Assembly: GCA_015057305.1 (NCBI GenBank)
Contig: SVES01000020.1
Span: 1 to 53,953, forward strand
Length of the DNA: 53,953 nucleotides
Direction of reading: 5' to 3'
Source: Pseudobutyrivibrio ruminis
Lineage (GTDB): Bacteria > Bacillota > Clostridia > Lachnospirales > Lachnospiraceae
A program made the translations under genes and the position numbers. This document shows positions 5,488-37,158 of this stretch, piece by piece; within the stretch, counting starts at the first letter, position 1, and each line of letters opens with the position of its first letter. Below the pieces are notes generated by a model. The model was not told the origin of the DNA. It was given only the letters and a program-made list of their open reading frames with translations, and did no database searches.

Positions 5488-6699
5488 ATGAAACTTGTAT
5501 TGATAAATGCGGAAAGTGGCAAGGGTGGAGGCCCGGCTACTATCTGTGATGATATATATGCCAATTTCTGTGAGCTGGATGGCAATGAAGCCCTTGTGTG
5601 CTATGGTAGACAGTGCAACGATAATGCATCGGTAAACAGATATAAGATTGGTGGAAAGCTCAGCCTTGGGTGCCATTTGGCAATGACTAGATTGTTTGAT
5701 GCCCATGGTCTAGGCTCAGTTATTGCTACAAAAAAGCTGGTTAGTAAGCTAAAGGAATATAAGCCTGATGTTGTAAATCTTCACAATATCCACGGCTATT
5801 ATATTAACTATAAAATATTATTCAAATACTTAAAAGAAGCAAATGTACCTGTGGTGTGGACATTTCATGATTGTTGGCCTTTTACAGGGCATTGCGCTTA
5901 TTTTGATTTAGCCGGATGCAAGAAATGGCAAACTCATTGTGAGGAATGCCCACAGAAGAGTAGCTATCCCAAGTCTCTATGGCTAGATGCATCTTCTAAG
6001 AATTTTGACAAAAAAAGAATACTATTCACAAGCCTAGGAAAGAATCTGACAATTGTAACTCCATCAGAGTGGTTGGCAAATCTTGTAAAAAAATCTTTCT
6101 TAAAGGATTGTAATATATCGGTTATAAATAACGGAATAGACTTGAATATTTTTAGACCATGCAAGGGGAATTTTAAAAAGGAACATGGCATTGAGGATAA
6201 GCGAATGGTGCTGGCGCTAGCTTCTGAATGGACAGCACGTAAAGGCTTTGACGATATAAAATATTTAGGTCAGCATCTGCCTGATTATTATAAACTTGTG
6301 ATAGTAGGCCTTGCCGAGGAACAGCTGTCAGAAGTTCCAGATAATATTATTGGCATTACAAGGACTGACAATGTGCAGCAGTTAGTAGAGATATATTCAG
6401 AGGCGGATGTGTTTGTAAATGCATCTGTAGAGGATAATTTTCCTACTGTCATTTTGGAGGCTCTCGCTTGCGGTACTCCCGTGGTAACCTACGATACCGG
6501 AGGCTGCAAGGAGGAAATAAATGCCGATTGCGGTATGCTGGTAGAAAAGTACGCCAAAGAAAAATTGACAGGTGCAATACTCATGCTGGGAGCTAAGGAT
6601 GAGGTAAGAGAACAGGCTTGCGTGAAAAAAGCTGAGGATTTTGAAAAGAAAAAGATGTATGACCTTTATAATGAAATTTTTTTTAAAATTTGCAATTAA
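5488..6699 (+). CDS. GT4-family glycosyltransferase
   Basis: A 403-residue cytoplasmic GT-B glycosyltransferase. The N-terminal GKGGGPATIC glycine-rich start, the Cys-rich segment containing DCWPFTGHC and CEECPQKS (near residues 130-155, also seen in WcaC-like enzymes), and the C-terminal donor-binding motif PTVILEALACGTPVV near residue 320 all fit family GT4. It starts 4 nt after the preceding stop, so it is translationally linked to the acylation trio. Donor and acceptor are unknown; it probably adds one sugar to the lipid-linked repeat unit. Confidence 0.88.
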   Translation: MKLVLINAESGKGGGPATICDDIYANFCELDGNEALVCYGRQCNDNASVNRYKIGGKLSLGCHLAMTRLFDAHGLGSVIATKKLVSKLKEYKPDVVNLHNIHGYYINYKILFKYLKEANVPVVWTFHDCWPFTGHCAYFDLAGCKKWQTHCEECPQKSSYPKSLWLDASSKNFDKKRILFTSLGKNLTIVTPSEWLANLVKKSFLKDCNISVINNGIDLNIFRPCKGNFKKEHGIEDKRMVLALASEWTARKGFDDIKYLGQHLPDYYKLVIVGLAEEQLSEVPDNIIGITRTDNVQQLVEIYSEADVFVNASVEDNFPTVILEALACGTPVVTYDTGGCKEEINADCGMLVEKYAKEKLTGAILMLGAKDEVREQACVKKAEDFEKKKMYDLYNEIFFKICN

Positions 6700-6750
6700 A
6701 GGAATAACGATATAAAATAAAATGATTCATTTAGGAAAAGCAGGTAAGAT

Positions 6751-7281
6751 ATGAACGTATTCAAAAGATTATACTTGCAGTTAGCTAGGGGCGGAGTGCT
6801 TCCAATAGATGAGCTTAGGCGCAGAGGAATGACAATCGGTGAAAACTGTTATGTCGGAACAGCAAAGATTGATTACCCTCATGCTTATTTAATCTCTATA
6901 GGAGATAATGTGACTGTAAGTGATGCTAGACTATTAGTTCATGATGCTAGCACGAAAAGAGCACTAGGACACTCTAGGGTAGGACGGATTGATATAGGAA
7001 ATAATGTGTTTATAGGTGCTGATGCTACTGTCCTTCCCAATGTTACAATTGGAGACAATGTGATTGTAGGTGCAGGTTCTGTAGTCACAAAAAATATTCC
7101 TGCTAATAGTGTTGCTGTGGGAAATCCTGCCAGAGTAATTTGCTCATATGATGAATACATAGAAAAAAACAGAAAAATAATGGAAACAAATCCAGTATAT
7201 GATACATATGAAAAGACTCCTGAAGAAATTGATGAAATGAAAGAAGCCTTGAAAAATAATACGATTGGATTTGACATGTAA
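6751..7281 (+). CDS. Hexapeptide-repeat O/N-acetyltransferase
   Basis: A 176-residue left-handed beta-helix (LbH) acyltransferase of the WbbJ/maltose-acetyltransferase type. Hexapeptide repeats run from about residue 50 to 130 ([32 protein letters not shown]), and the end of the helix carries [19 protein letters not shown], the usual acetyl-CoA-site signature. It is preceded by AGGTAAG. It probably acetylates a sugar of the repeat unit. The closeness to wecE makes Fuc4N one possible acceptor, but O-acetylation of another sugar is equally possible. Confidence 0.85.
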
Positions 7282-25325: not shown

Positions 25326-26519
25326 GTGGAAAAATTAGCTATCAATGGTGGCTACCCAGTTCGTGCGGGGGTAATTAAATATGGTAGACAATGGATTGAC
25401 GAAAAGGATATTGAAGCAGTTGATGAGGTTCTACGTAGTGACTTCATTACATGTGGTCCTAAAGTTGATGAGATGGAACGCAGCTTGGCTGAATATACCG
25501 GTGCGAAATATGCAGTTGCAGTAAGTAACGGAACTGCGGCACTGCATTGCGCTTGTATAGCTGCTGGCATAGGGCCTGGAGATGAGGTTATAGTTTCACC
25601 AATTACTTTTGCTGCTTCTGCAAATTGTATTCTATATTGTGGGGCAAAACCTGTATTTGCGGATATTAATATTGAAACGTATAATATTGATCCAAAATGC
25701 ATTCGTAAGAAAATAACCGATAAAACAAAAGCTGTCATAGCAGTAGATTTTACTGGACAAGCAGTTGAGATAGATGAGATAAGAAAAATATGTAAGGAAC
25801 ATAATCTTTTGTTTATTGAGGATGCGGCTCATTCTATTGGAACAAAATACAATGGCAAACAGGTAGGTTCGTTAGCAGATATGACTTGTTTTAGTTTTCA
25901 TCCAGTTAAGACTATCACAGGTGGAGAAGGTGGAGCGATAACTACAAATGACGAGGGACTATATAGAAAATTAGTCTTGGCACATACACATGGAATAACA
26001 AGGCTGCCGGAAGAGATGGTTCATGAAAGCGAAGGGTCTTGGTATTATGAAGAAATAAGTATGGGTTACAACTATAGGTTGACTGATTTCCAAGCAGCTT
26101 TAATAACTAGTCAAATGACTAAGTTAGAGAAGTTTGCAAAAAGAAGAAAGGAAATAGTGAAAAGATACAATAAAGAATTTAAAGACATACCGGAGATAAT
26201 CATCCAAAAGGAAATTCCGGAATCTGATTCATGTCGTCATTTGTATATCATTAGATTGGACTTAAACAAATTAAAATGCACTAGAAAAGAATTTTTCCAA
26301 GCATTGTGGAAAGAAAATATTGGATGTCAAGTACATTATATACCTGTATATTGGTTCCCTTATTACGAAAAACTTGGATATACAAGAGGGTTATGCCCAA
26401 ATGCAGAGGAGTTATATAAAGGCATAATCAGTATACCACTTTATCCTCGCTTGACTGATGAGGATGTTTCGGATGTAATTCATGCAGTTAAGAAATTAAT
26501 AGATAATTATAGGAAGTAA
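25326..26519 (+). CDS. pseC: UDP-4-amino-4,6-dideoxy-N-acetyl-beta-L-altrosamine transaminase
   Basis: A 397-residue PLP aminotransferase with the PseC signature start (KYGRQWIDEKDIEAVDEVL, SDFITCGPKV) and PLP lysine K195 in SFHPVKTITGGEGG. PseC makes the 4-amino sugar on the route to pseudaminic acid; pseI and pseG are found about 10 kb downstream. The start is GTG with AAGGAGGA 5-6 nt upstream. It is separated from the other pse genes by the second ThDP enzyme and the two repeat-headed modules, so the pathway has been split or the product is shared with another route. Confidence 0.9.
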   Translation: MEKLAINGGYPVRAGVIKYGRQWIDEKDIEAVDEVLRSDFITCGPKVDEMERSLAEYTGAKYAVAVSNGTAALHCACIAAGIGPGDEVIVSPITFAASANCILYCGAKPVFADINIETYNIDPKCIRKKITDKTKAVIAVDFTGQAVEIDEIRKICKEHNLLFIEDAAHSIGTKYNGKQVGSLADMTCFSFHPVKTITGGEGGAITTNDEGLYRKLVLAHTHGITRLPEEMVHESEGSWYYEEISMGYNYRLTDFQAALITSQMTKLEKFAKRRKEIVKRYNKEFKDIPEIIIQKEIPESDSCRHLYIIRLDLNKLKCTRKEFFQALWKENIGCQVHYIPVYWFPYYEKLGYTRGLCPNAEELYKGIISIPLYPRLTDEDVSDVIHAVKKLIDNYRK

Positions 26520-26522
26520 AAG

Positions 26523-28301
26523 ATGAAAAAAAGAGTTGCAGACATTGTGATGGATGTCTTAGTAGAAAATGGTATAACAGTTTGTTTTTCTGTAGTGGGT
26601 GGAGGGGCAATGCATTTGGATAATGCATTGGCACTTAATGATAAGATTAATAAAGTATTTAATCACCACGAACAAGCCTGCGCTATGGCAGCAGAAGGAT
26701 ATGCGAAGGCATGTGGAAAAATGGCTGCGGTGTGTGTAACAAGTGGCCCAGGAGCTCTTAATACACTTAATGGTGTTGAGGGGGCGTATGTAGATAATGT
26801 ACCAATGATTGTTATTGCGGGACACCCTCGATGGGATACGACTGTTAATGTGACGGGACTAAATCTGAGATATAGGGGAGTTCAAGAATATGACATTATT
26901 CCTTCGGTAGAGGGAATGACGAAATATGCTAAGATGGTTACAGACCCATTGTCTATAAAACGAGAATTGCAAAGGGCGATAAATATTGCAAATCAGGGGC
27001 GTAAAGGACCAACTTGGCTAAGTATTCCATTAGATATCCAGAGCAAGATAGTTGAAATGGATGAATTGTATCCGATTGAGCCTATTGCGCAGCTTAAATA
27101 TACTTTAACAAATGAGAAAATCTACGAATTAAACAGGCTTATTACTGACTCTAATAGACCGGTCATCCTGCCAGGTTCAGGCGTGAGAACTGGAAACGCT
27201 ATAGATGAATTTAGACAATTTGCAAGTAAAATGAATATTCCTATTGTTAGTGGAGCTCTACTTCCTGATATAATGTGGGAATCTGCTGATAATTTCTATG
27301 GTACATCAGGCAATGTGGGCGAAAGAAGAGGCAATTTTATACTTCAGAATGCTGATTTAATCATAGCAATAGCAAATAGCTTGGCATTAAAGCAGACTGG
27401 ATTTAATCAAGATGCATTTGCGCCAAATGCGAAAATTGTAATGATTGATGCTGGTGAGGATGAATTTAAAAAACCAGGAGTAAAGGCAGATTTTGAAATA
27501 TATTGTGATGCGAAGACGTTTTTAAACGAAGCTAATAGAAGTATAAATCCGTGGAATACCAAACAAGATTGGATTGACTACTGTGATTCGGTAAAAGAAA
27601 TACTTGGAGATATTGATGAGCCAGTAATGGGTGACTCAATGTCTAGAGTGCCACAAGCTTTGTTTTGGAAAATTGTGAATGAAAAAATGCCAGAAAATGC
27701 CATGGTTGCATTAGGAAATAGTCCTGGTGGATGCGGAAGATTACAACATGCAATAAAGCATCCGAACCAACGAGTTATTGTAAATTACAATAGTGGTTCG
27801 ATGGGAGACGATTTACCAGAGGCAATTGGTATGATAGTTTCCGGAGCAGATGAAGTCATTTGTGCAACGGGCGATGGTTCCATAATGATGAATTTGCAAG
27901 AGCTGCAAACCATAAAAATGCATAATTATAATATTAAGATAGTGGTATTTTCAAATGAAGGCTATGGAGCTATTAGACAAACTAATAAGAATTTCTTCGA
28001 TGGTTTGTACATAGGTTGTGATGATAAAAGTGGCGTAAGTATGCCAGATTTTGAAAAGATTGCAATGGCATTCGATATACCTTTTAAACGATGTGATAAT
28101 ATTGGACAATTAACAGAATCTATCCAATGGCTATTTGATAATAATGGTCCACTATTGTTGGATTTATGCCAGGAGATTGATGATCCGGTGATGCCAAAGG
28201 TGATGTCGAAAATGAGAGAAGATGGAAGCTTCTTTACACCTCCATTGCAAGATATGTATCCATATATATCAGATGAGAAGATGAATCAACTGATGCTATA
28301 A
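26523..28301 (+). CDS. Second ThDP-dependent enzyme, acetolactate-synthase fold
   Basis: A 592-residue paralogue of the enzyme at 20891-22699. Catalytic Glu E50 lies in NHHEQACAMAAEGYAK, GDGS at 450-453, and the second half of the ThDP motif is NEGYG near 480. Both proteins end in a similar way (PKVMSKMREDGSFFTPPLQDMYP here, PKLSSKVMPDGSIVSPSMDDMFP there), a feature I do not associate with acetolactate synthase. It starts 3 nt after pseC. Two such enzymes imply two branched sugars or two acyl donors. Its pairing with PseC suggests an amino-sugar substrate, but that is inference. Confidence 0.84.
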   Translation: MKKRVADIVMDVLVENGITVCFSVVGGGAMHLDNALALNDKINKVFNHHEQACAMAAEGYAKACGKMAAVCVTSGPGALNTLNGVEGAYVDNVPMIVIAGHPRWDTTVNVTGLNLRYRGVQEYDIIPSVEGMTKYAKMVTDPLSIKRELQRAINIANQGRKGPTWLSIPLDIQSKIVEMDELYPIEPIAQLKYTLTNEKIYELNRLITDSNRPVILPGSGVRTGNAIDEFRQFASKMNIPIVSGALLPDIMWESADNFYGTSGNVGERRGNFILQNADLIIAIANSLALKQTGFNQDAFAPNAKIVMIDAGEDEFKKPGVKADFEIYCDAKTFLNEANRSINPWNTKQDWIDYCDSVKEILGDIDEPVMGDSMSRVPQALFWKIVNEKMPENAMVALGNSPGGCGRLQHAIKHPNQRVIVNYNSGSMGDDLPEAIGMIVSGADEVICATGDGSIMMNLQELQTIKMHNYNIKIVVFSNEGYGAIRQTNKNFFDGLYIGCDDKSGVSMPDFEKIAMAFDIPFKRCDNIGQLTESIQWLFDNNGPLLLDLCQEIDDPVMPKVMSKMREDGSFFTPPLQDMYPYISDEKMNQLML

Positions 28302-28335
28302 TAAATATATATAATAATTTTGTAAATAAAAAAAG

Positions 28336-28367
28336 CTTGACATATAATTAGTAGAGGACAAAATTTT
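28336..28367 (+). promoter_or_regulatory. Leader of repeat module 1: shared 12-mer, ribosome site, TTG start
   Basis: CTTGACATATAA at 28336-28347 differs in one base from CTTGACAAATAA at 32511-32522 in front of the second module, and lies at nearly the same distance from the repeat (33 and 35 nt). TTGACA looks like a -35 box, but there is no good -10 at 17 nt. TATAAT at 28343 with TTGTAA at 28320 would start RNA too close to the ribosome site. AGAGGA at 28353-28358 precedes TTG 28366. Aligning the two leaders puts AAA here where module 2 has its ATG, so module 1 starts two codons later. Confidence 0.55.
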
Positions 28368-30261
28368 GAGCAGAGCAGAGCAGAGCAGAGCAGAGCAGAG
28401 CAGAGCAGAGCAGAGCAGTCTTGTTTTAGCATTTTTAGGTGCAATGCTGGTTTCTATGGTTGCGAGTATTTATGTGCTTGTTGCAACTAGATTACTAAAA
28501 GAAGGCTATATTACAAATCTTCGAATATCATTGGCTATCGTAAACTTTACATGGTTGTCTTTGACGATTGGAAGTTATAGAGGGCTTAAGAGATATACAT
28601 GTAAATGTATAATATGTTCATCCATTTTGGTTATTCTTGTTGCGATATCAATGGTGAATGAGTATTGGTCACAATATTATACAATTTTTCCAATCCAGGC
28701 GATAAATCAAGAGACCAATGGATTTGCAGCGACTGATTTAATGTATTTCTCCACACTATCAGAAAGTTTCAAGAATTATGGGTATCCTTCTGCATTAATT
28801 AATAACGCTGAATTTCATAACTACCATTTTGTAGGCATGGCAATTGTTGGCATTATCGCTAAAATAACGTGTATGCCAGCAATATATATTTATTCATATT
28901 TGGTGCCTATAATTGCGTTTCCCCTATTTTTCTTTCTTCTACTGTGCGTGCCATACCTTTACCGAAATTTATGTAATCAAGGAAACAGCATAATAGGATT
29001 TCCAGATGTGATTTTGGTTAGTTGCTTTTTGACATATTTTTTTATAAGCAAAGAAATGGCCAATATGGTTACGGATTTAAAGTTGGACTGGTTGGTTAGC
29101 ATAAGTTATCTACTGTCTGGTATATTATTTTTATCATATTTTGCTCTAATAATATTTTTTAAGAGTAAACTGGAAAAAAGAGGAACAAAGATTAATTTAT
29201 ATTTAGTAACACCGTTATATATTGCTCTTCTTTCATATGGAAAAATATCTATTGGATTAATATTTACAGCATGTGCCTCATACTATTTAATTAGGCGTTA
29301 TAAAAATTTCAGCGCACCAGTTTATTATATAATTGTTTTTATAATGATATATATTCTTCCAAAGCATATATACTCCCCAGTGAAAAGTTTGTCAAATGGA
29401 AATATAGGAGATTTGTTTAGTATACTTGATTATTACAATGTCTTTTTGAATAAAAAACTAGTTGGGATACATTTTCTTACTGTTTTTGCTTATTCTATTA
29501 TCTTTATTCTATGGTCGATTAGAAATGAAAAAAACATTAAAGATATTTGGGGACTTTGTAAAAGAGGTAAATTAATCTCTGTTGAGGTATTAATACTTTC
29601 TTGTTTCTTAGGAATATTGCCAGGAAATATAATACATATAGCAAGTGGCAGCGCATGGTATTTTGTTTCTGTTCAACAGATTATTGCTGTAGGATTACTT
29701 ATAGCTTATAATGTTCCAAATGAATTGTTTGAAATACTATCAAAAAAGAAGTCTATTTCTTATAGAATTTGTTCGTATACTCTATTTATATGTTTAGCAC
29801 ATCAGTTTTTGTACAATGTATGGGGGCGCTTGTGTTCGTTTGAAAATGTAATATATGATGGTTCAATAAATGAAGGGGCTAGTAGTAGGATTGAAAAATC
29901 ATATTATTCAGAGGTTAGTGCGATTAATAAGATAACAGAAGGGCATAAGTCGGACTATTATATTTATGTTGATGATACTGCTGATATTTGGAAACGCTTT
30001 GATAAGATTGGCACAGCGGTTTGGTTTTATCCTGCTTTCACAGGTGTAGTCTGTATTGGTGAGATATATAATGATGAGAATGGAAACGTTTATTTTAACG
30101 ATGGTACATCAGAGGCAAGGGAATGGGGATATGTTTCTAAATATATTGAGCCGCGTATGACGTGGGATGATGCAATAGATAAAGCTCGAGAAGATAACAA
30201 AAAGGCTGTTATTCGAATAAGTAATAATCATAATATATATATTGAGGAAATAGGAGATTAA
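28366..30261 (+). CDS. Phase-variable multi-pass membrane protein, putative GT-C glycosyltransferase
   Basis: A 631-residue membrane protein whose first 17 residues are the repeat-encoded S-R-A-E-Q series. The first membrane helix starts right after the repeat. About eleven more hydrophobic segments follow up to residue 480, then a soluble C-terminal domain of about 150 residues. An outside-loop segment (NGFAATDLMYFSTLSESFKNYG, in part) resembles the donor loop of GT-C enzymes. Start TTG 28366 has AGAGGA 7-8 nt upstream. A 10-nt gap leads to the pyruvyltransferase-family gene, so a frameshift here would probably also lower those genes by polarity. The family is not certain; a polymerase is possible. 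Confidence 0.78.
   Translation: MSRAEQSRAEQSRAEQSSLVLAFLGAMLVSMVASIYVLVATRLLKEGYITNLRISLAIVNFTWLSLTIGSYRGLKRYTCKCIICSSILVILVAISMVNEYWSQYYTIFPIQAINQETNGFAATDLMYFSTLSESFKNYGYPSALINNAEFHNYHFVGMAIVGIIAKITCMPAIYIYSYLVPIIAFPLFFFLLLCVPYLYRNLCNQGNSIIGFPDVILVSCFLTYFFISKEMANMVTDLKLDWLVSISYLLSGILFLSYFALIIFFKSKLEKRGTKINLYLVTPLYIALLSYGKISIGLIFTACASYYLIRRYKNFSAPVYYIIVFIMIYILPKHIYSPVKSLSNGNIGDLFSILDYYNVFLNKKLVGIHFLTVFAYSIIFILWSIRNEKNIKDIWGLCKRGKLISVEVLILSCFLGILPGNIIHIASGSAWYFVSVQQIIAVGLLIAYNVPNELFEILSKKKSISYRICSYTLFICLAHQFLYNVWGRLCSFENVIYDGSINEGASSRIEKSYYSEVSAINKITEGHKSDYYIYVDDTADIWKRFDKIGTAVWFYPAFTGVVCIGEIYNDENGNVYFNDGTSEAREWGYVSKYIEPRMTWDDAIDKAREDNKKAVIRISNNHNIYIEEIGD
28368..28418 (+). repeat. Pentanucleotide tract (GAGCA)10, module 1
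   Basis: 51 nt of perfect period 5 (ten GAGCA plus one G), starting in the second codon of the 631-residue membrane protein. In frame it encodes SRAEQ repeated. Because 5 is not a multiple of 3, one repeat gained or lost shifts the frame. As sequenced the downstream gene is in frame (ON). The two other frames meet TAG within about five codons after the tract, or TAG about 24 codons after it. This is the structure of a slipped-strand phase-variation switch, as in Neisseria opa (CTCTT). Confidence 0.95.
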
Positions 30262-30271
30262 TGGAGAATAT

Positions 30272-31534
30272 ATGAAGTACGGAGTCATAATATATAACTA
30301 TGAGGATATTGCGATAAAATGCGCTGGATATAATTTAGGAGATCCTGTTCAAACTATTGCGGTGTTACACCTATATAAGCAAATGGGTATACCTGAGAAT
30401 GAAATTGTCCATATTGGGATGCAGCATTTAAAAGATTACAATGGTGAATATGTCATTTTACCTATCATTGGAGTTGGAATTGTAGGCGATTATGCACCCC
30501 CATATTCTGAAAGGATTATACCAATATTTATCAGTTCACATTTTGTCTTAGATGAATTAACACAAGAACAAATAAGTTATTTGAATCATCACGCTCCAAT
30601 AGGATGCAGAGATGAATGGTCTTTAAATACAATGCGTAAATACAATATTCCGTCTTATTTATCTGGATGTATAACCGTATTAATGCATCCCAAAATGGAT
30701 ACGCTGAATTGTAGAAATGACGGCAAAATATGGGCAATTGATGTTCCAGAGTTTATAAAACCTGAGTTAGAGAAGCACTTTGATAAGGAAAATATTATAT
30801 ACGGTACGCATTTGGTTCCATTTTCTCATGATGGTGCAATGACTGCAAAAGATACAAAAGACTATATTAATATGGCAAAGCAAAGAATAGAAGAATATAG
30901 GAAAGCTAAGCTTGTCATTTCAAGTAGGATGCATGCAATAATACCAGCGATGACGGCTGGAACACCAGTTATAGGGGTATTTGAAAATATATCATATAGA
31001 TTTTCGTGGCTAGACAAATATATTCCACTCTATACAGAGTCTGATATTGACAAAATAGATTGGACACCAAAATCGGTAGAAATTCAACAATATGATTTAA
31101 TTTATAAAGTCTTTTCCAAAAGAATTTCAGATATTTATAACAAATATGCGGATTATATGGATATCTCTTTATATTATGAAGAGAGGCATAAAGCTCAATA
31201 TGGAAATAGATATAAGAAAATAATTAACAGATTTATTGACAAAGAAAAAAAGGTAAATTATATGATATTTGGATGTGGCTTGATAGGGGCTGTTGCATAT
31301 AAAATCATCCAAGAAGAATATCCATATGCTAATTTTTTAGGGGCTATAGACAATTATGTTGAAGGGGAGTGGAAAGGAAAACCAGTGTACAAACCAAATA
31401 AAAATGTAATTTATCCTGATACAAAAATTATTATAGCTACATATTCTGGCAAAGAGTCAGCTTTAAATTTCATGAAATCATTAAATTACAAGGAGAATAG
31501 CAATTATTGTTATATTGCAACAACAAGCGGATGA
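30272..31534 (+). CDS. Polysaccharide pyruvyltransferase-family protein with extra C-terminal domain
   Basis: A 420-residue protein. The N-terminal 300 residues match the polysaccharide pyruvyl transferase family (CsaB/WcaK type): NLGDPVQTIAVLHLY, PIGCRDEWSLN, VISSRMHAIIPAMTAGTPVIGV. The last 100 residues (VNYMIFGCGLIGAVAYKII) look like a small Rossmann-type domain. Family members transfer pyruvate ketals to sugars, or in some cases sugars. GGAGA precedes the ATG, and the stop overlaps the next ATG (ATGA). It is a clear paralogue of 32718-33977, with the same length, the same motifs and the same extra domain. Confidence 0.85.
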   Translation: MKYGVIIYNYEDIAIKCAGYNLGDPVQTIAVLHLYKQMGIPENEIVHIGMQHLKDYNGEYVILPIIGVGIVGDYAPPYSERIIPIFISSHFVLDELTQEQISYLNHHAPIGCRDEWSLNTMRKYNIPSYLSGCITVLMHPKMDTLNCRNDGKIWAIDVPEFIKPELEKHFDKENIIYGTHLVPFSHDGAMTAKDTKDYINMAKQRIEEYRKAKLVISSRMHAIIPAMTAGTPVIGVFENISYRFSWLDKYIPLYTESDIDKIDWTPKSVEIQQYDLIYKVFSKRISDIYNKYADYMDISLYYEERHKAQYGNRYKKIINRFIDKEKKVNYMIFGCGLIGAVAYKIIQEEYPYANFLGAIDNYVEGEWKGKPVYKPNKNVIYPDTKIIIATYSGKESALNFMKSLNYKENSNYCYIATTSG

Positions 31535-32472
31535 AAAAAATTAGCATAGCAATTCCAACAAGGAATGAAGAGGATAATATACAACCATTAGTGGAATGTA
31601 TTAGGACAATATTCAAAGAAGAATTGACTGAATACGATTATGAAATAATAATTTCCGACAACAAGTCTAATGATGGCACACGACGGATAATTAGAGAAAT
31701 TTGTAAGAAGGATAGAAAGGTGAAGGCGATTTTTAATGCCAATAGTTTTTCGTACTCAGCAATAAATGCAATGATTAGTAGTACTGGAGAATGTACATTA
31801 TTGATGCCCGCTGATTTTCAAGATCCTCCTGAATTAATTCCCGATTTTGTTCATAAATGGGAAGAAGGTTTTGATGCAGTTGTCGGAGTTAAAACCGCAA
31901 GCAAAGAAAACCCTCTGATGTTTTGGATTAGAAAAAAATATTATTCACTAGTTAGAAAAATTAGTGATGTCAATCTTATAGAAAATTTTTCAATGTTTGC
32001 ATTATATGATAGGAAGATGGTAATGGCATTAAGTCAAGTTACAGATCCTTTGATTTATTTAAGAGGGTTATTAGTAGAATTCACTGATAGTATTGCAATT
32101 ATAGAATATACGCAAAATAAACGTGAAAGAGGCAAATCAAGTAATAATATCTATAGATTATATGATTTCGCAATGAGAGGAATCACATCCTATTCGAAGG
32201 TTCCTTTAAGAATGGCTATATTTACGGGTATGATAGGTTGTATCGTAGGAGTAATTACAGGGCTTTATTACTTGATAAAAAAGTTTGTGTATTGGAGTAC
32301 ATTTGATGCGGGAATTATACCATTAGTTGTATTAATAGTGTTGTTCGGATCGCTTCAAATGATAGTACTTGGTATTATGGGTGAATACATCATGAATATA
32401 AACGTTAGAGTGATGAATCATCCAAGAATTGTAGAGGATGAAAGAATCAATTTCGAGGATATAGAGTCATAA
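31531..32472 (+). CDS. GtrB/DPM1-like GT2 glycosyltransferase with membrane tail, module 1
   Basis: A 313-residue enzyme starting at ATG 31531, which overlaps the preceding stop by 4 nt; the upstream TTG (31507) is unlikely. ISIAIPTRNEEDNI, SDNKSNDGT, PADFQDPPEL (metal site near residue 93) and two membrane hairpins (about 225-300) place it with the polyprenyl-phosphate GT2 enzymes. It is closely related to 24262-25209 and 33964-34962. It completes the first repeat-headed module, presumably making the lipid-phosphate sugar used by the phase-variable membrane protein. Confidence 0.87.
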   Translation: MKKISIAIPTRNEEDNIQPLVECIRTIFKEELTEYDYEIIISDNKSNDGTRRIIREICKKDRKVKAIFNANSFSYSAINAMISSTGECTLLMPADFQDPPELIPDFVHKWEEGFDAVVGVKTASKENPLMFWIRKKYYSLVRKISDVNLIENFSMFALYDRKMVMALSQVTDPLIYLRGLLVEFTDSIAIIEYTQNKRERGKSSNNIYRLYDFAMRGITSYSKVPLRMAIFTGMIGCIVGVITGLYYLIKKFVYWSTFDAGIIPLVVLIVLFGSLQMIVLGIMGEYIMNINVRVMNHPRIVEDERINFEDIES

Positions 32473-32510
32473 TAGAGAAAAACTAAAAAATTAGGAAAAG
32501 ATAAAAAGTA

Positions 32511-32539
32511 CTTGACAAATAAAGGAGTTAGCGCAAATG
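32511..32539 (+). promoter_or_regulatory. Leader of repeat module 2: shared 12-mer, AGGAG, ATG
   Basis: CTTGACAAATAA at 32511-32522 repeats the element in front of module 1 with one mismatch. AGGAG at 32523-32527 lies 9 nt before ATG 32537, a good ribosome site. The sequence from the start into the repeat (ATTTTTAGCAG) matches module 1 (ATTTTGAGCAG) in 10 of 11 bases. A -10 at the right distance from TTGACA is not evident, so RNA may come from an upstream promoter. Confidence 0.55.
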
Positions 32540-32623
32540 ATTTTTAGCAGAGCAGAGCAGAGCAGAGCAGAGCAGAGCAGAGCAGAGCAGAGCAGAGCAG
32601 AGCAGAGCAATTGTAGGGTTTGA
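32537..32623 (+). CDS. Repeat-encoded leader peptide (28 codons), currently in the short frame
   Basis: A short open frame: ATG, Ile, Phe, four SRAEQ units, then SNCRV and TGA at 32621-32623. It has its own AGGAG site. A second frame hits TAG at 32614-32616. The third frame runs without a stop from the tract through the terminator hairpin at 32646-32691 to TAA at 32709-32711, only 6 nt before the next gene. Only one of three repeat lengths therefore lets ribosomes cross the terminator. The current length does not; one more repeat or two fewer would. I infer that this is a regulatory leader peptide and not a functional protein. Confidence 0.75.
   Translation: MIFSRAEQSRAEQSRAEQSRAEQSNCRV
32546..32609 (+). 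repeat. Pentanucleotide tract (AGCAG)12.8, module 2
   Basis: 64 nt of perfect period 5, the same unit as at 28368 but longer. It starts at codon 4 of the leader peptide. Both tracts are read in the same frame relative to the repeat (SRAEQ). The minus-strand reading (LLCSA repeats) is a shadow. Copy number may vary within the culture, so the sequenced number is a consensus. Confidence 0.95.
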
Positions 32624-32645
32624 TTGCTCTTATTTTGATAACAAG

Positions 32646-32691
32646 AAGGAAAGTATATTTTCTGTATTCAGAAAATATACTTTCCTTTTTT
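32646..32691 (+). terminator. Strong intrinsic terminator inside the leader of module 2
   Basis: Perfect 19-bp inverted repeat (left arm 32646-32664, right arm 32669-32687) with a TATT loop, followed by TTTT. The reading frame opened by a gain of one repeat passes through the whole hairpin without a stop. In the present frame translation stops 22 nt before the hairpin, so it is free to form. Confidence 0.9.
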
Positions 32692-32717
32692 GTTGTAAGA
32701 AAGGAGCCTAAAACAAA

Positions 32718-33977
32718 ATGAAATTTGCTAATATTTATTTTGATGGAAACAGAAAAGGCTCTGTTAATATAGGAGATGATTTGCAATTAGTGGCAATTGA
32801 AAATTTATATAAAGAAATGGGTATTAATTATGATGATGAAGTAGTCAGAATTGGATTATCAGAATTAAGTACTTATGATGGAGAATATGTGGTTTTACCT
32901 ATTTCCTTTCCTTTATATGGATATCGAGAGGGAACCTATATAACGATGTTTTCCCCTAAGATAATACCAGTTTTTTTAGCGCTCTCTATAATGAGTGGTA
33001 ATATAAGTCAAGAAGAATGTGATTATTTTCGTCGCTTTGAGCCAATAGGATGCCGCGATTATTACACGGCAAATCTTTTGAGAAAGAACAATATAATGGC
33101 ATATGTGAATGGGTGTATGACTGTAACGTTTCCGAAACAAAAAAACTTATTTGGAAGTAAAGTATATTTGGTAGATGTACCAGAAAGCTATTATAAATAT
33201 ATACCTTTGCATATATTGGAAGAATCGGTCATGTGTTCTCAGGTGTTATATGATTGTGCTAACCCAGAAAAAGAAATAAAAAATCGATTAGAAGAATATG
33301 CTAGAAATGCATCTTTAATAATAACTACTAGACTTCATTGTGCTATGCCTTGTTTGGCAATGGGGCTTCCAGTGATATTGATGAAAGATAAATATTCATT
33401 TAGATTTACTTTTGTTTCAAAATATATACATGTATACGAGAAAGAAGAATTTTCAGAAATAGATTGGAACCCGAAGTCTATAGATTTTGAACCTGAGAAA
33501 AGAAAAATTCTTGATTTGGCAAAAAAAAGAATTACAGAAACATGGGATAAATATTATGACATGTATGCTCTATCTGAGTTCTATGAAAAAAGCAATATTC
33601 GAAAAGATGCATATATTGAACATTTTGACAATGTAAAAGAATTCATTGATAAAAAATTTAACCAAAACGAATGCTTCAGGTATGCAGTATGGGGAATAAC
33701 GCAGAAAGCAGACATGATTTGTTCATATATAGAGAGTAACTACAAAAATGCAAGGTTATCATATGTTTATGACAAAAATAAAAAAATAGAATTTCATGGA
33801 GTTATGAGTGGAAATGATGATGATGTGATCACTGCTGATGATATTTTTGTATTTGTTACCGCAGCAACTGCTAATCCAATTGCTAAAGAAAAATTTGAAA
33901 AGATTGGGAAGACTAATTATCACATAAGTGATGATGGAATCGATGTTTCTAGGAGTGATGAAAATGATAGGAGATAA
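32718..33977 (+). CDS. Polysaccharide pyruvyltransferase-family protein, module 2
   Basis: A 419-residue paralogue of 30272-31534: NIGDDLQLVAIENLY, EPIGCRDYYTANLL, LIITTRLHCAMPCLAMGLPVIL, and a C-terminal 100-residue Rossmann-like domain starting at YAVWGITQKAD. AAAGGAG at 32700-32706 precedes ATG 32718 by 11 nt. It lies just behind a strong terminator, so its expression from upstream transcription should depend on read-through. The last 14 nt overlap the start of the next gene. Confidence 0.85.
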   Translation: MKFANIYFDGNRKGSVNIGDDLQLVAIENLYKEMGINYDDEVVRIGLSELSTYDGEYVVLPISFPLYGYREGTYITMFSPKIIPVFLALSIMSGNISQEECDYFRRFEPIGCRDYYTANLLRKNNIMAYVNGCMTVTFPKQKNLFGSKVYLVDVPESYYKYIPLHILEESVMCSQVLYDCANPEKEIKNRLEEYARNASLIITTRLHCAMPCLAMGLPVILMKDKYSFRFTFVSKYIHVYEKEEFSEIDWNPKSIDFEPEKRKILDLAKKRITETWDKYYDMYALSEFYEKSNIRKDAYIEHFDNVKEFIDKKFNQNECFRYAVWGITQKADMICSYIESNYKNARLSYVYDKNKKIEFHGVMSGNDDDVITADDIFVFVTAATANPIAKEKFEKIGKTNYHISDDGIDVSRSDENDRR

Positions 33978-34962
33978 AATATCTATACTTGTTCCATGTT
34001 ATAATGAAGAAGAAAATGTTGTTTCGGTTGCTGAAGAAATAACCAGAATAATGACTACTAAGTTGACTGGATATGAATATGAAATAATATTTAGAGATAA
34101 TGCATCAACTGATAATACAGTCGTAATGCTTCGTAGACTTGCTTCAAAAGATAATCATATAAAGGTAATTGTTAACAGTAGGAATTATGGTGTTTTCCCA
34201 GATAATAATACTTTCCTGGGTAAAATTAGCGGAAATATTTGTATAGGTGTGCCTTGTGATTTACAAGATCCATTAGAAATTATTGTAGAGCTAGTTGAAT
34301 GGTATGAAAAAGGTTATGAAGTAGTTGCAGGACAAAAAATATCTTCAGAAGAGGGCGTAATTAAGTACGGGTTTAGGCAGTTATATTATAAAATATTGCA
34401 ATTCTTTTCGGAGAGAAAAAGAGTGGCAAATATAAGTGGATCAATACTTATGTCTAAAAGAATCTATGAAATATATAATAGTGGATATAAGTTCCAAATG
34501 TTTGATACATTTGCTGCCGATTGTGGCATAGAGATTAAAACAGTTCCATATAGGCAGAAAAAAAGAGAGCATGGAAAATCATCATATAATTTGGCGAGGT
34601 CATTTAATTATTCGATAAATGGATTAATACAGACTAGTATAAAGCCAATAAGGATAGCAACTGTGTTGGGAACAATTTTTTCATCAGTATCTTTTGTGGC
34701 AGGTTTAGTATATTTTATTCTCAAAATAATATTTTGGAAAATGTTTCCGGCAGGTACAACACCAATTTTACTAGGAATGTTTTTCATAGGCTCAATACAA
34801 CTATTATTTTTAGGACTGATAGGAGAATATGTTGGGCAGATATATAAATTAACAACACCATCTAACCCAGCCGTGGTTTCGGAATTAATAAATTTTGATG
34901 ATGAAATAGTAAATAGCACTTTGATTATAAAGAATAAAAATTATTTAGAAGAGGACAATTGA
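33964..34962 (+). CDS. GtrB/DPM1-like GT2 glycosyltransferase with membrane tail, module 2
   Basis: A 332-residue enzyme with ISILVPCYNEEENVVSV, RDNASTDNT, PCDLQDPLEI (near residue 100) and two membrane hairpins (about 225-295). ATG 33964 is chosen because AGGAG at 33951-33955 lies 8 nt upstream; ATG 33958 is only 2 nt away from it. It forms the second half of module 2 and mirrors module 1, except that no GT-C gene stands between the repeat tract and the pyruvyltransferase gene here. Confidence 0.87.
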   Translation: MIGDKISILVPCYNEEENVVSVAEEITRIMTTKLTGYEYEIIFRDNASTDNTVVMLRRLASKDNHIKVIVNSRNYGVFPDNNTFLGKISGNICIGVPCDLQDPLEIIVELVEWYEKGYEVVAGQKISSEEGVIKYGFRQLYYKILQFFSERKRVANISGSILMSKRIYEIYNSGYKFQMFDTFAADCGIEIKTVPYRQKKREHGKSSYNLARSFNYSINGLIQTSIKPIRIATVLGTIFSSVSFVAGLVYFILKIIFWKMFPAGTTPILLGMFFIGSIQLLFLGLIGEYVGQIYKLTTPSNPAVVSELINFDDEIVNSTLIIKNKNYLEEDN

Positions 34963-34976
34963 ACGGGGGTACTTGT

Positions 34977-35003
34977 ATGAATAGTAGTGAAATCCTAGCT
35001 TAG
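34977..35003 (+). other. Possible 8-codon leader ORF
   Basis: ATG at 34977 preceded by GGGGGT opens an 8-codon frame (MNSSEILA, stop at 35001-35003). It lies 42 nt before a hairpin at 35046, in the 130-nt gap in front of pseI. The arrangement resembles a leader peptide and attenuator, but the frame is so short that chance is a fair explanation. Confidence 0.3.
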
Positions 35004-35045
35004 AATTAGTAGATTTTTATACAATAAATTATGCAAATATGATAG

Positions 35046-35078
35046 AATAAGAGCGGTTTAGAAACTGCTCTTATTTTA
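35046..35078 (+). terminator. Intrinsic terminator before pseI
   Basis: Inverted repeat AATAAGAGCGGTTT / AAACTGCTCTTATT with one G-U pair and a tiny loop (35060-35061, more when the last pairs open), ending in TTTTA. It lies after the module 2 genes and 15 nt before the pseI start, so it probably ends the module 2 transcript. pseI then needs read-through or its own promoter. Confidence 0.7.
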
Positions 35079-35092
35079 TCATGGAGAATTGA

Positions 35093-36124
35093 ATGTTTAG
35101 GTTATATAACAAAATAAGGAATAAAGACGTATATATTATAGCAGAAATGAGTGCCAATCATGGTGGCTCATTAGATAATGCACTCAAGATTGTTAGAGAA
35201 GCAGCAAAGGCGGGAGCAGATTGCCTTAAGATTCAAACGTATACAGCCGACTCTCTAACTATAGACTGCGATAATGAGTATTTTAAAATTAAAGGTGGTC
35301 TTTGGGACGGATATAAACTTTATGATTTATATCAAGAAGCAGGGACTCCATATGAGTGGCACCAGGCAATCAAAGATGAATGTGAAAAATGTGGCATTGA
35401 TTTTCTGTCAACTCCTTTTGATAAAGTTGGAGTTGATTTTTTAGAGTCATTGGGCGTTGAAGCTTATAAAATTGCCAGCTTTGAGCTTGTTGATATCCCT
35501 TTGATTGAATACACAGCTTCAAAGGGCAAGGCAATGATTATATCAACTGGTATGGCGTCATTGGAAGAAATACAGGATGCTATAGATGCGTGTCACAGTG
35601 TAGGAAACGACCAGGTAGTGCTTTTGAAATGTTGTAGCGAATACCCGGCACCATGGGCAGATATGCATCTTGGAAATATTCCAGACATGTCTAAACGATT
35701 TAATCTTCCAGTAGGATTATCTGATCATAGTGCAGGTAGTTTAGGGGCAGTAGTAGGAGTGACTTTAGGAGCATGTGTGGTTGAAAAACATGTTATGCTG
35801 GAAGGTGTGGAAAGCGCTGATAGTAAGTTTAGCATGCCAATGGATGAGTTTGCGCAGATGGTCAATGATGTACGAAATGCAAAACTTATAGCACAAGGTC
35901 CCAATTATGAGCTGACTGATGGCGAAAAAGCGTCTACAGTATTTAGACGTAGTGTATTTGCAATAAAAGACATTAGAGCTGGTGAGAAGTTTACCGAAGA
36001 TAATATAAGAGTGATTAGACCAGGATATGGTTTGGGTCCTAAATACTATAAAGAATTATTAGGTAAAACATCAAGTCAGTTAATTGAACGAGGAGCACCT
36101 ATTAAGAAGGAGATGCTAGATTGA
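35093..36124 (+). CDS. pseI: Pseudaminic acid synthase
   Basis: A 343-residue NeuB-family synthase that condenses phosphoenolpyruvate with 6-deoxy-AltdiNAc. IIAEMSANHGGSLDNA at the N-terminus and the segment SLW/GGLWDGYKLYDLYQEAGTPYEWH (in part) are typical of PseI as opposed to NeuB or LegI. A C-terminal antifreeze-like SAF domain follows from about residue 285 (RRSVFAIKDIRAGEKFTEDN). The ribosome site GGAG is 6 nt upstream. The partner genes are pseC (25326) and pseG (37720); pseB is broken at 38801 and no pseF (CMP-Pse synthase) is seen. Confidence 0.92.
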   Translation: MFRLYNKIRNKDVYIIAEMSANHGGSLDNALKIVREAAKAGADCLKIQTYTADSLTIDCDNEYFKIKGGLWDGYKLYDLYQEAGTPYEWHQAIKDECEKCGIDFLSTPFDKVGVDFLESLGVEAYKIASFELVDIPLIEYTASKGKAMIISTGMASLEEIQDAIDACHSVGNDQVVLLKCCSEYPAPWADMHLGNIPDMSKRFNLPVGLSDHSAGSLGAVVGVTLGACVVEKHVMLEGVESADSKFSMPMDEFAQMVNDVRNAKLIAQGPNYELTDGEKASTVFRRSVFAIKDIRAGEKFTEDNIRVIRPGYGLGPKYYKELLGKTSSQLIERGAPIKKEMLD

Positions 36125-37158
36125 TGGTTTTAGAAATAGGAAAAACATCTACAATTAAGAACATCATTGAAGAAAATGATATACAAGCATTTGCAAACAT
36201 TAGCGGAGATTATAATCCAGCGCATACAAATGATGAATATGCAAGAAAAAGTGTGTTTGGAAGAAGAATAGCTCATGGAATGCTTTCTGCAAGTTATATA
36301 TCGGCAGTTCTTGGAACTAAAATGCCAGGCCCAGGAACGATTTACCTACATCAAGATCTTGACTTTAAGAAGCCAGTTTATATTGGAGATGAAATTACAA
36401 CAATAGTAGAAGTGGCAAAAATACTTAATCCAGAGAAAGGCATATATGAGCTAAAGACGAAGTGCGTAAATCAAAATGGAGATATAGTAGTTGATGGTAC
36501 CGCCGTTGTAAAATATATTGAAGAGAATATCCATACCAGTGATTTTGTGGATAAGAAAAGCAACACATTCTATTCAGAGGAAGAACTGGCACACTTGGGG
36601 CTAAAGAAATATGGAAAGAATGTGCTGATTAGCAGAAATGCAATATTGTATTCACCAGAAAAGTTAGAAGTGGGTAATGACGTTAGAATAGATGACTTCA
36701 CTACTATTAGTGGGAATGTAAAACTAGGTAGCTTTATTCATATAGCACAGTTTTGTGGACTATATGGCGGGGATGAAGGCATTATAATGGAAGATTTTTC
36801 AGGTTTGTCTTCTAAGGTGACGATTTATGCTACATCAAATGATTACTCTGGGAATTCGATGACCAATCCGATGGTGCCAGCTAAATATAAACCTGGAGAC
36901 AAAGAAGCTAAGGTAGTATTGGAAAAACACGTGATTGTGGGTGTTAATTCTGTAATATTACCAGGTGTTGAGATAGGTGAGGGCTCATCTGTGGGAGCCA
37001 TGAGTATGTGTGCAAAATCCCTCGAACCATGGGGAATATATGTAGGCGCACCTGCAAAAAAAATTAAAGATAGAAGTAAGAAGTTGTTAGAGTTAGAGAA
37101 ACAGTTTATTGAAGAACGTAAGTTCCTCGGGGGGGGTACAGACCTCTCGATAGAATAG
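36124..37158 (+). CDS. MaoC-like hydratase fused to a hexapeptide acyltransferase
   Basis: A 344-residue fusion. Residues 1-140 form a MaoC-like hot-dog hydratase with the catalytic pattern ISGDYNPAHTNDEYA and FGRRIAHGMLSASYIS. Residues 150-330 form a left-handed beta-helix acyltransferase (VGNDVRIDDFTTIS, VIVGVNSVILPGVEIGEGSSVGA). MaoC proteins make (R)-3-hydroxyacyl-CoA from enoyl-CoA, so the fusion could produce and transfer a 3-hydroxybutyryl-type group to an amino sugar (inference). It follows pseI with a shared base (TGATG), where PseH would be expected. ATG 36124 is preferred over TTG 36121. A G8 run lies eight codons from the end. Confidence 0.85.
   Translation: MVLEIGKTSTIKNIIEENDIQAFANISGDYNPAHTNDEYARKSVFGRRIAHGMLSASYISAVLGTKMPGPGTIYLHQDLDFKKPVYIGDEITTIVEVAKILNPEKGIYELKTKCVNQNGDIVVDGTAVVKYIEENIHTSDFVDKKSNTFYSEEELAHLGLKKYGKNVLISRNAILYSPEKLEVGNDVRIDDFTTISGNVKLGSFIHIAQFCGLYGGDEGIIMEDFSGLSSKVTIYATSNDYSGNSMTNPMVPAKYKPGDKEAKVVLEKHVIVGVNSVILPGVEIGEGSSVGAMSMCAKSLEPWGIYVGAPAKKIKDRSKKLLELEKQFIEERKFLGGGTDLSIE
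37129..37136 (+). repeat. G8 homopolymer near the end of the MaoC-acyltransferase gene
   Basis: Eight G in a row in AT-rich DNA, eight codons before the stop. Loss of one G ends the frame at a TAG a few codons later; gain of one G extends it by about 14 codons to TGA. Either change alters only the last residues, so the effect would be small. Poly-G runs are classic slippage sites in Campylobacter. Confidence 0.6.

Follow-up and report, generated by a model that had tools for sequence, protein, structure and literature searches.

In attenuation of the trp type, terminator formation depends on where the ribosome stands in a leader ORF. Leader translation also governs a terminator at the pil1 locus of Streptococcus gallolyticus (Danne et al. 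2014, PMC3894217). In the sections of that paper on which we draw, GCAGA repeats lie in a leader ORF with an RBS and an ATG, followed by a stem-loop terminator, and out-of-frame repeats lengthen the leader peptide such that ribosomes open the terminator. The experiments included deletion of the terminator, an RBS/ATG mutant, added stop codons and chloramphenicol. Gaps of 28 nt or more between leader stop and terminator corresponded to the low state and a gap of 4 nt to the high state. The pil1 promoter was mapped (TTGTGT/AATAAT), and variants supported the same repeat logic at pil3. In Streptococcus suis, GAGCA(n) switches the gene that carries it, the type III methyltransferase gene modS (PMC6265453, as excerpted).

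Here we analysed a 53,953-nt stretch of Pseudobutyrivibrio ruminis DNA (the window). It very probably contains a transcription attenuator of the pil1 type, phase-variable and under ribosome control, inside a surface-glycan operon. The elements of the switch are as follows.

32521..32527, + strand: leader RBS, AAAGGAG (sequence)
32537..32623, + strand: leader ORF in the sequenced frame (predicted OFF), 28 codons, from ATG 32537-32539 to the stop TGA 32621-32623
32546..32609, + strand: (AGCAG)12.8 tract, 64 nt, 100% match (TRF), SRAEQ in every frame
32604..32630, + strand: T1, a small terminator-like hairpin, AGAGCAAT...ATTGCTCT then TATTTT, -9.6 kcal/mol; its 5' arm is the last repeat unit
32614..32616, + strand: TAG, stop of the second frame, also 5' of the main terminator
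32645..32691, + strand: T2, the main intrinsic terminator, stem-loop 32645-32688 plus a T-rich tail (terminator scan, folding)
32700..32706, + strand: pyruvyltransferase RBS, AAAGGAG (sequence)
32537..32711, + strand: ON-frame leader ORF after gain of one or loss of two units, 59 or 54 codons, through T1 and T2 to the stop TAA 32709-32711

The original prediction, made from the sequence, had named the leader with AGGAG, the ATG at 32537, the 64-nt pentamer tract and the three frame stops, and all of these reappeared at the same positions in our analysis. As in a leader of the pil1 type, the tandem repeats lie inside an ORF having an RBS and a start codon, and the frame sets whether the leader stops before the terminator (32614, 32621) or in or beyond it (32709). 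The sequenced-frame peptide is MIF(SRAEQ)4SNCRV. All three frames of the tract are stop-free SRAEQ repeats, as the unit length, five, is not divisible by three. Recomputing the stops gave 32709 for a change of +1 or -2 units, the same outcome as predicted for one repeat gained or two lost, 32614 for -1 or +2, and 32621 again for +3. The distance to the base of T2 is 21 nt from the TGA and 28 nt from the TAG. The ON frame runs across the ribosome site of the next gene and ends, with its TAA, 6 nt 5' of that gene's ATG (32718), another point on which the coordinates agreed with the prediction. Four tandem AGCAG units occur at only two places in the 3.42-Mb genome (89% complete), both within the window.

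By sequence and fold, an intrinsic terminator lies between the leader and the first gene. The predicted hairpin had been placed at 32646-32691, 22 nt past the TGA; it is present, with the stem-loop at 32645-32688 and a gap of 21 nt. The T2 stem has 20 pairs (tool count), five of them G-C, and a free energy of -25.7 to -26.3 kcal/mol. A terminator scan of 26500-36200 returned 9 rows versus 3.2 +/- 2.0 in shuffles; three of these were the T2 hairpin (one on the opposite strand) and one was T1. The earlier reading had seen T2 alone and overlooked T1. Folding of 32595-32717 gave -44.7 kcal/mol (z = -6.8 versus 200 shuffles). T1 is not part of the minimum-energy fold of this segment, in which its 3' arm pairs with the next RBS: both the minimum-energy fold and the centroid pair AGGAGC (32702-32707) with GCUCUU (32626-32631), thus extending the T2 stem and masking the RBS. 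Since GCUCUU also serves as the 3' arm of T1, T1 and RBS masking are mutually exclusive. Untranslated read-through RNA is therefore predicted to hide the pyruvyltransferase RBS, and an ON-frame ribosome to open it. An Rfam search gave 0 matches and a tRNA search 0 tRNAs.

We infer the course of events as follows. RNA polymerase would read the leader while a ribosome starts at the ATG (32537) and traverses the repeats. In two of the three frames the ribosome would halt at 32614 or 32621, 28 or 21 nt short of T2, which would allow T2 to fold and stop most transcripts. If slippage adds one unit or removes two, or makes any change with an equal remainder modulo 3, the ribosome would instead pass through T1 and T2 to the TAA at 32709. 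This ribosome would hold both hairpins open and free the RBS, which is predicted to be base-paired in its absence. As the leader then ends 6 nt short of the pyruvyltransferase ATG, the operon would be turned on at the level of transcription and, by coupling, probably at that of translation as well. The sequenced frame is thus predicted to be OFF. It may leak, because its 21-nt gap is intermediate between the 28 nt or more of the low state and the 4 nt of the high state in the excerpted pil1 data.

The switch lies between genes of the same direction, of which the following adjoin it.

31507..32472, + strand: upstream glycosyltransferase family 2 gene (PF00535, 1.5e-22)
32718..33977, + strand: polysaccharide pyruvyl transferase gene, the first controlled gene, ATG at 32718 (PF04230, 8e-15)
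33958..34962, + strand: next gene, glycosyltransferase family 2, overlapping the pyruvyl transferase gene (PF00535, 2.1e-19)

The neighbourhood holds a gene for a TPP enzyme, two pairs of a pyruvyl transferase and a family 2 glycosyltransferase gene, and a NeuB-family gene; the attenuator sits between the two pairs, and the pyruvyl transferases of the window are 36% identical. The hairpin is separated from the next ATG by 29 nt. This is too short for a separate pyruvyltransferase promoter, so that a downstream gene with its own promoter after the terminator, the case named as contrary evidence in the original prediction, has no room here. The other 28 genomes of the genus contained no close homologue of the pyruvyltransferase (best, 37% over part of the protein), and at E <= 1e-20 there were matches in 2/29 genus genomes, its own included, at 36-37%. 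Consequently, there is no orthologous locus in the genus for comparison.

The window's second repeat tract had escaped the earlier reading.

28368..28418, + strand: (AGCAG)10.2 tract, in frame with the ORF 28366-30261 (TTG start), ON as sequenced (TRF, ORF list)

The product of this ORF has 631 aa and no Pfam match; from its sequence we read it as a membrane protein. The arrangement suggests that the tract is a classical translational switch, ON as sequenced.

We then asked how widely the layout occurs. AGCAG tracts were present in 3/29 genomes of the genus and 11/397 of the family (own genome included in both), and in 4/197 genomes of the genus to which Streptococcus azizii belongs. Scanning species genomes gave at least 116 stretches with an AGCAG tract, which are not a random sample. 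Together with the earlier loci there were at least 132 tracts in 96 clusters, and 106 had at least 250 nt downstream; four weak matches (L055, L056, L057, L062) were left out since they contain no run of three perfect units. Loci were classed as attenuator-like when the tract was followed by a hairpin of -11 kcal/mol or better with a T-run and no long fused frame, and as fused when it entered a frame of more than 400 nt, a rule that also catches some high-GC loci. Among the matches listed, the 106 loci comprised 44 attenuator-like (27 clusters), 29 fused (29 clusters) and 33 unclear ones (25 clusters). A recurrence of the repeat-terminator layout in related genomes had been suggested as a check on the original prediction, and these 27 clusters bear it out. 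The translations of fused proteins included acyltransferase-like and methyltransferase-like ones, as read without a family search. Likewise among the matches listed, T1 was found in 10/27 attenuator clusters (1.0 expected), 1/29 fused (2.2) and 4/25 unclear ones (1.2); by the rule applied it was missing in 17/27 attenuator clusters. Very long tracts also occur: L078 (minus strand, 6599-6929) has 66 AGCAG units. Twenty-two viral-contig stretches (L198-L219) contain at least six units.

The T2 threshold was -15 kcal/mol in the frame test (37 loci), -11 for the classes (44 loci) and -13 when three repeat units were pooled (63 loci). In the frame test, on 21 clusters among the matches listed, a frame reached T2 in 21/21 (18.3 expected with shuffled spacers, P 0.03). 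Switch-capable clusters, in which one frame extends to T2 and a second ends well short of it, numbered 17/21 among the matches listed (12.6 expected, P 0.02). These excesses over chance are mild. A conserved leader family of Lachnospiraceae is more informative. In 20/20 rows (L019 and L132 belong to a single contig), a frame leaving the tract stays open for 42-83 nt until it meets a stop codon at the T2 base. The motif by which the rows were picked includes this stop codon but did not require the frame ahead of it to be open. Of the other frames, one ends 14 or 23 nt inside T2 in 13/20 rows, 17 nt inside it in L048 and far past it in L102; in five rows no other frame extends that far. The usual 3' part of T2 is absent from L068, the first L076 tract, L087 and L114. 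The leader peptide MRNR(T/N/K/P)TLL is found in 12/17 rows, with Arg and Asn codon changes that are mostly synonymous (counted by eye); in L087, which is among these 12, a stop codon closes the frame shortly ahead of the tract. A search with the family member L133 gave no match among phage and plasmid sequences. In a plasmid search for strain-level length variants, four E. faecalis plasmids had a 72.5% similar region without the tract.

The layout does not depend on the AGCAG unit. Of 397 family genomes, 53 had GACA matches and 14 AAGC matches; we read 30 GACA and 16 AAGC loci among the matches listed and found the attenuator layout with both units, often before genes for proteins with a hydrophobic N-terminus. 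The genome of the window itself has a (GACA)16.8 attenuator before such a gene (L229, G000:C69 near 57861), with stops at +1, +6 and +107 and T2 at +35 to +69. At L260, a tract of another unit is followed by hairpins that, by eye, look like T1 and T2 as they occur in the conserved AGCAG leader family. Independence of the unit was also visible in other repeats within the collected loci. For the three units together there were, among the matches listed, 63 loci with a T2 of -13 kcal/mol or better. This count includes L050 twice (its tract is split by N), drops L132 (same contig as L019) and takes in probable non-switches, e.g. L090, L101, L119, L127, L152 and L164. In 54 of the 63 listed loci, T2 is followed by an ORF of at least 80 aa with an RBS in front of it, and by a simple rule 42 of the 54 ORFs encode a hydrophobic N-terminal segment, unlike the controlled pyruvyltransferase, which has none. 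The called leader start predicted 16 of the 63 listed loci to be ON and 19 OFF; 28 were uncalled. On an Erysipelotrichaceae contig (L149), an (AAGC)15 and an 8.4-unit AGCAG tract form two attenuator-like loci. A very long tract of another unit, at L231:1498-2198, has 175 GACA units. In several Lachnospiraceae, GACA tracts grouped by eye lie at the apparent end of hsdS (L223, L224, L228, L235, L236, L239, L241, L242). Pfam assigned the two tested (L223, L236) to the specificity subunit HsdS (PF01420), which ruled out HsdM. By sequence, these loci are probably phase-variable type I restriction systems.

Both tracts of the window adjoin a promoter-like element, P2, that the original prediction did not mention. 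At the second tract it reads TTGACA (28337-28342) and CAAAAT (28359-28364); at the attenuator it is located as follows.

32512..32541, + strand: P2, promoter-like TTGACA-18-AATGAT, ending 4 bp before the tract and overlapping the leader RBS and ATG

Among the matches listed, TTGAC lies 27-36 nt 5' of the tract in 41/85 clusters, and 4 have it at another position of the final 60 nt; in 200 shuffles the mean was 0.8 and the maximum 4. The hexamer 16-18 nt past TTGAC (best of three spacings) matched TATAAT at 4.3/6 positions versus 2.8 in shuffles, with A in the second place in 95% and T in the sixth in 93% of these 41 listed clusters. We defined the full geometry as a TTGACA-N16-18-TATAAT type element with at least 4/6 and 3/6 matches, ending 0-7 bp before the tract. 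Tracts with less than 60 nt upstream were omitted from the upstream counts (160 nt in the promoter scan, 40 nt in the T1 and class counts). The full geometry was found, among the matches listed, in 47/89 non-redundant AGCAG clusters, 17/23 GACA tracts (2.7 expected) and 7/10 AAGC tracts (0.8 expected). Removal of eight hsdS tracts, which are weak evidence because TTGACA is coding sequence there, left 10/15 listed GACA tracts with P2. Other arrays had it in 4/16 cases (both strands). The background for all these counts was 6.9% of 5512 gene-start positions on the same contigs. By class, 16/20 attenuator, 13/27 fused and 3/21 unclear clusters among those listed carry P2. Judged by record title, the P2 loci are mostly from Bacillota; two delta-proteobacterial MAGs (L081 and L125) and an Enterovibrio (L138) also qualify.

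P2 is unlikely to be the promoter of the repeat ORF, because the start codon usually lies upstream of the would-be P2 transcription start. An RBS and start codon opened into the tract in 40/47 P2-bearing clusters (17.1 expected) and 13/42 others (12.0 expected), among the matches listed; in the streptococcal tracts the start codon is ATG. Separate upstream promoters scoring >=10/12 preceded 27% of 44 listed P2-bearing clusters versus 3.8% in shuffles, and 7.3% of 41 listed clusters without P2 versus 1.7%. With the RBS and start over-represented and upstream promoters enriched, we rejected the idea that the tract is present solely in P2-made RNA. A bolder proposal is that the repeat switches of Bacillota are two-part units, a tract of any sequence plus a P2 only a few bases away, and that P2 may transcribe the tract and thereby raise slippage. 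We regard this as rather unlikely; the alternatives are pausing of RNA polymerase and a mutation bias that makes tracts arise beside promoters. The P2 start would fall inside the tract, and in attenuators T1 and T2 would end the P2 RNA. A transcript from P2 could not express the leader or the gene, whose start region P2 overlaps. If the proposal holds, the switching rate is a promoter-controlled trait.

The locus itself could be read in other ways. The tract might be a remnant, the degraded 5' end of a conventional phase-variable gene that has since lost its coding part, with the hairpin serving as the end terminator of the upstream glycosyltransferase gene. AGCAG tracts entering long open frames are indeed common, as the 29 fused loci among the matches listed attest, and one such tract lies 4 kb away within the window. 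The recurrence of tract, terminator and gene in 27 listed clusters, the conserved leader peptide, the GACA layout in the same genome (L229) and the lack of promoter space between T2 and the next ATG nevertheless make this quite improbable. A mainly translational effect, in which the extended hairpin masks the pyruvyltransferase RBS, leader translation unmasks it and little termination occurs at T2, would fit the predicted pairing of GCUCUU with AGGAGC and the end of the ON frame close to the ATG. We consider it improbable, since T2 has a T-rich tail, as intrinsic terminators do, and since coupling is unlikely across the tens to hundreds of nucleotides that often separate T2 from the following start codon in relatives.

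Finally, the repeats could act as RNA and not through their frames, one possibility being a (GAGNN)n site of the kind bound by TRAP. A TRAP site consists of GAG triplets with 2-nt spacers, which the GAGCA repeats resemble. The window genome (89% complete) gave no match to the TRAP family PF02081 (0/1), and a control search was positive in B. subtilis. Moreover, GACA and AAGC units build an equal layout, and the unit itself is thus unlikely to be the signal. We rejected TRAP-like binding on these grounds and hold an RNA role of the repeats to be extremely improbable. The pil1-type attenuator is the reading that we prefer. That the switch acts on transcription of the downstream operon and not on the gene carrying the repeat, as the original prediction proposed, is supported by the fit to pil1 and by the recurring layout.

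By layout, these data would extend a device known from one streptococcal species to rumen and gut Lachnospiraceae. Within Bacillota the same layout is built from AGCAG, GACA or AAGC units, mostly before genes for proteins with signal-peptide-like N-termini. In the window, a translational switch (read as ON) and an attenuator (read as OFF) in one glycan locus would give four surface states. P2 beside the tracts raises the testable question of whether bacteria adjust how fast they switch through transcription of the repeat. Among the open-licence papers listed, no title or abstract opening described P2 or the spread of the device. A term search of a 2025 review of phase variation (PMC11868660) found no occurrence of leader peptide, gallolyticus, terminator or termination.

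Compared with described systems, the mechanism is not new in kind: the same device with the same repeat was demonstrated experimentally at pil1, a precedent absent from the original prediction. GCAGA is AGCAG rotated and, as at pil1 and pil3, repeat number sets the leader stop before, in or after the hairpin. A trp-type attenuator likewise lets the position of the leader ribosome govern a terminator, but here the input would be a heritable frame change and not amino-acid supply. The S. suis modS gene shares the repeat unit and the frame switching, and in this respect is analogous to the tract at 28368-28418; in the modS text available, it is the repeat-carrying gene that is turned on and off, and a terminator is no part of the switch. 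The pil1 device, as described in the sections used, controls a pilus operon behind a mapped promoter, whereas the present one lies between the genes of a glycan operon. A pilus target is a trait of the known cases and not of the device, and the target here is a polysaccharide pyruvyl transferase (PF04230). Further differences from pil1, to the same extent, are the extra hairpin made from the repeat, the predicted RBS masking and an ON leader that reaches the start of the next gene. What is new is a member of this class inside a Pseudobutyrivibrio glycan operon, with an unusual target and position.
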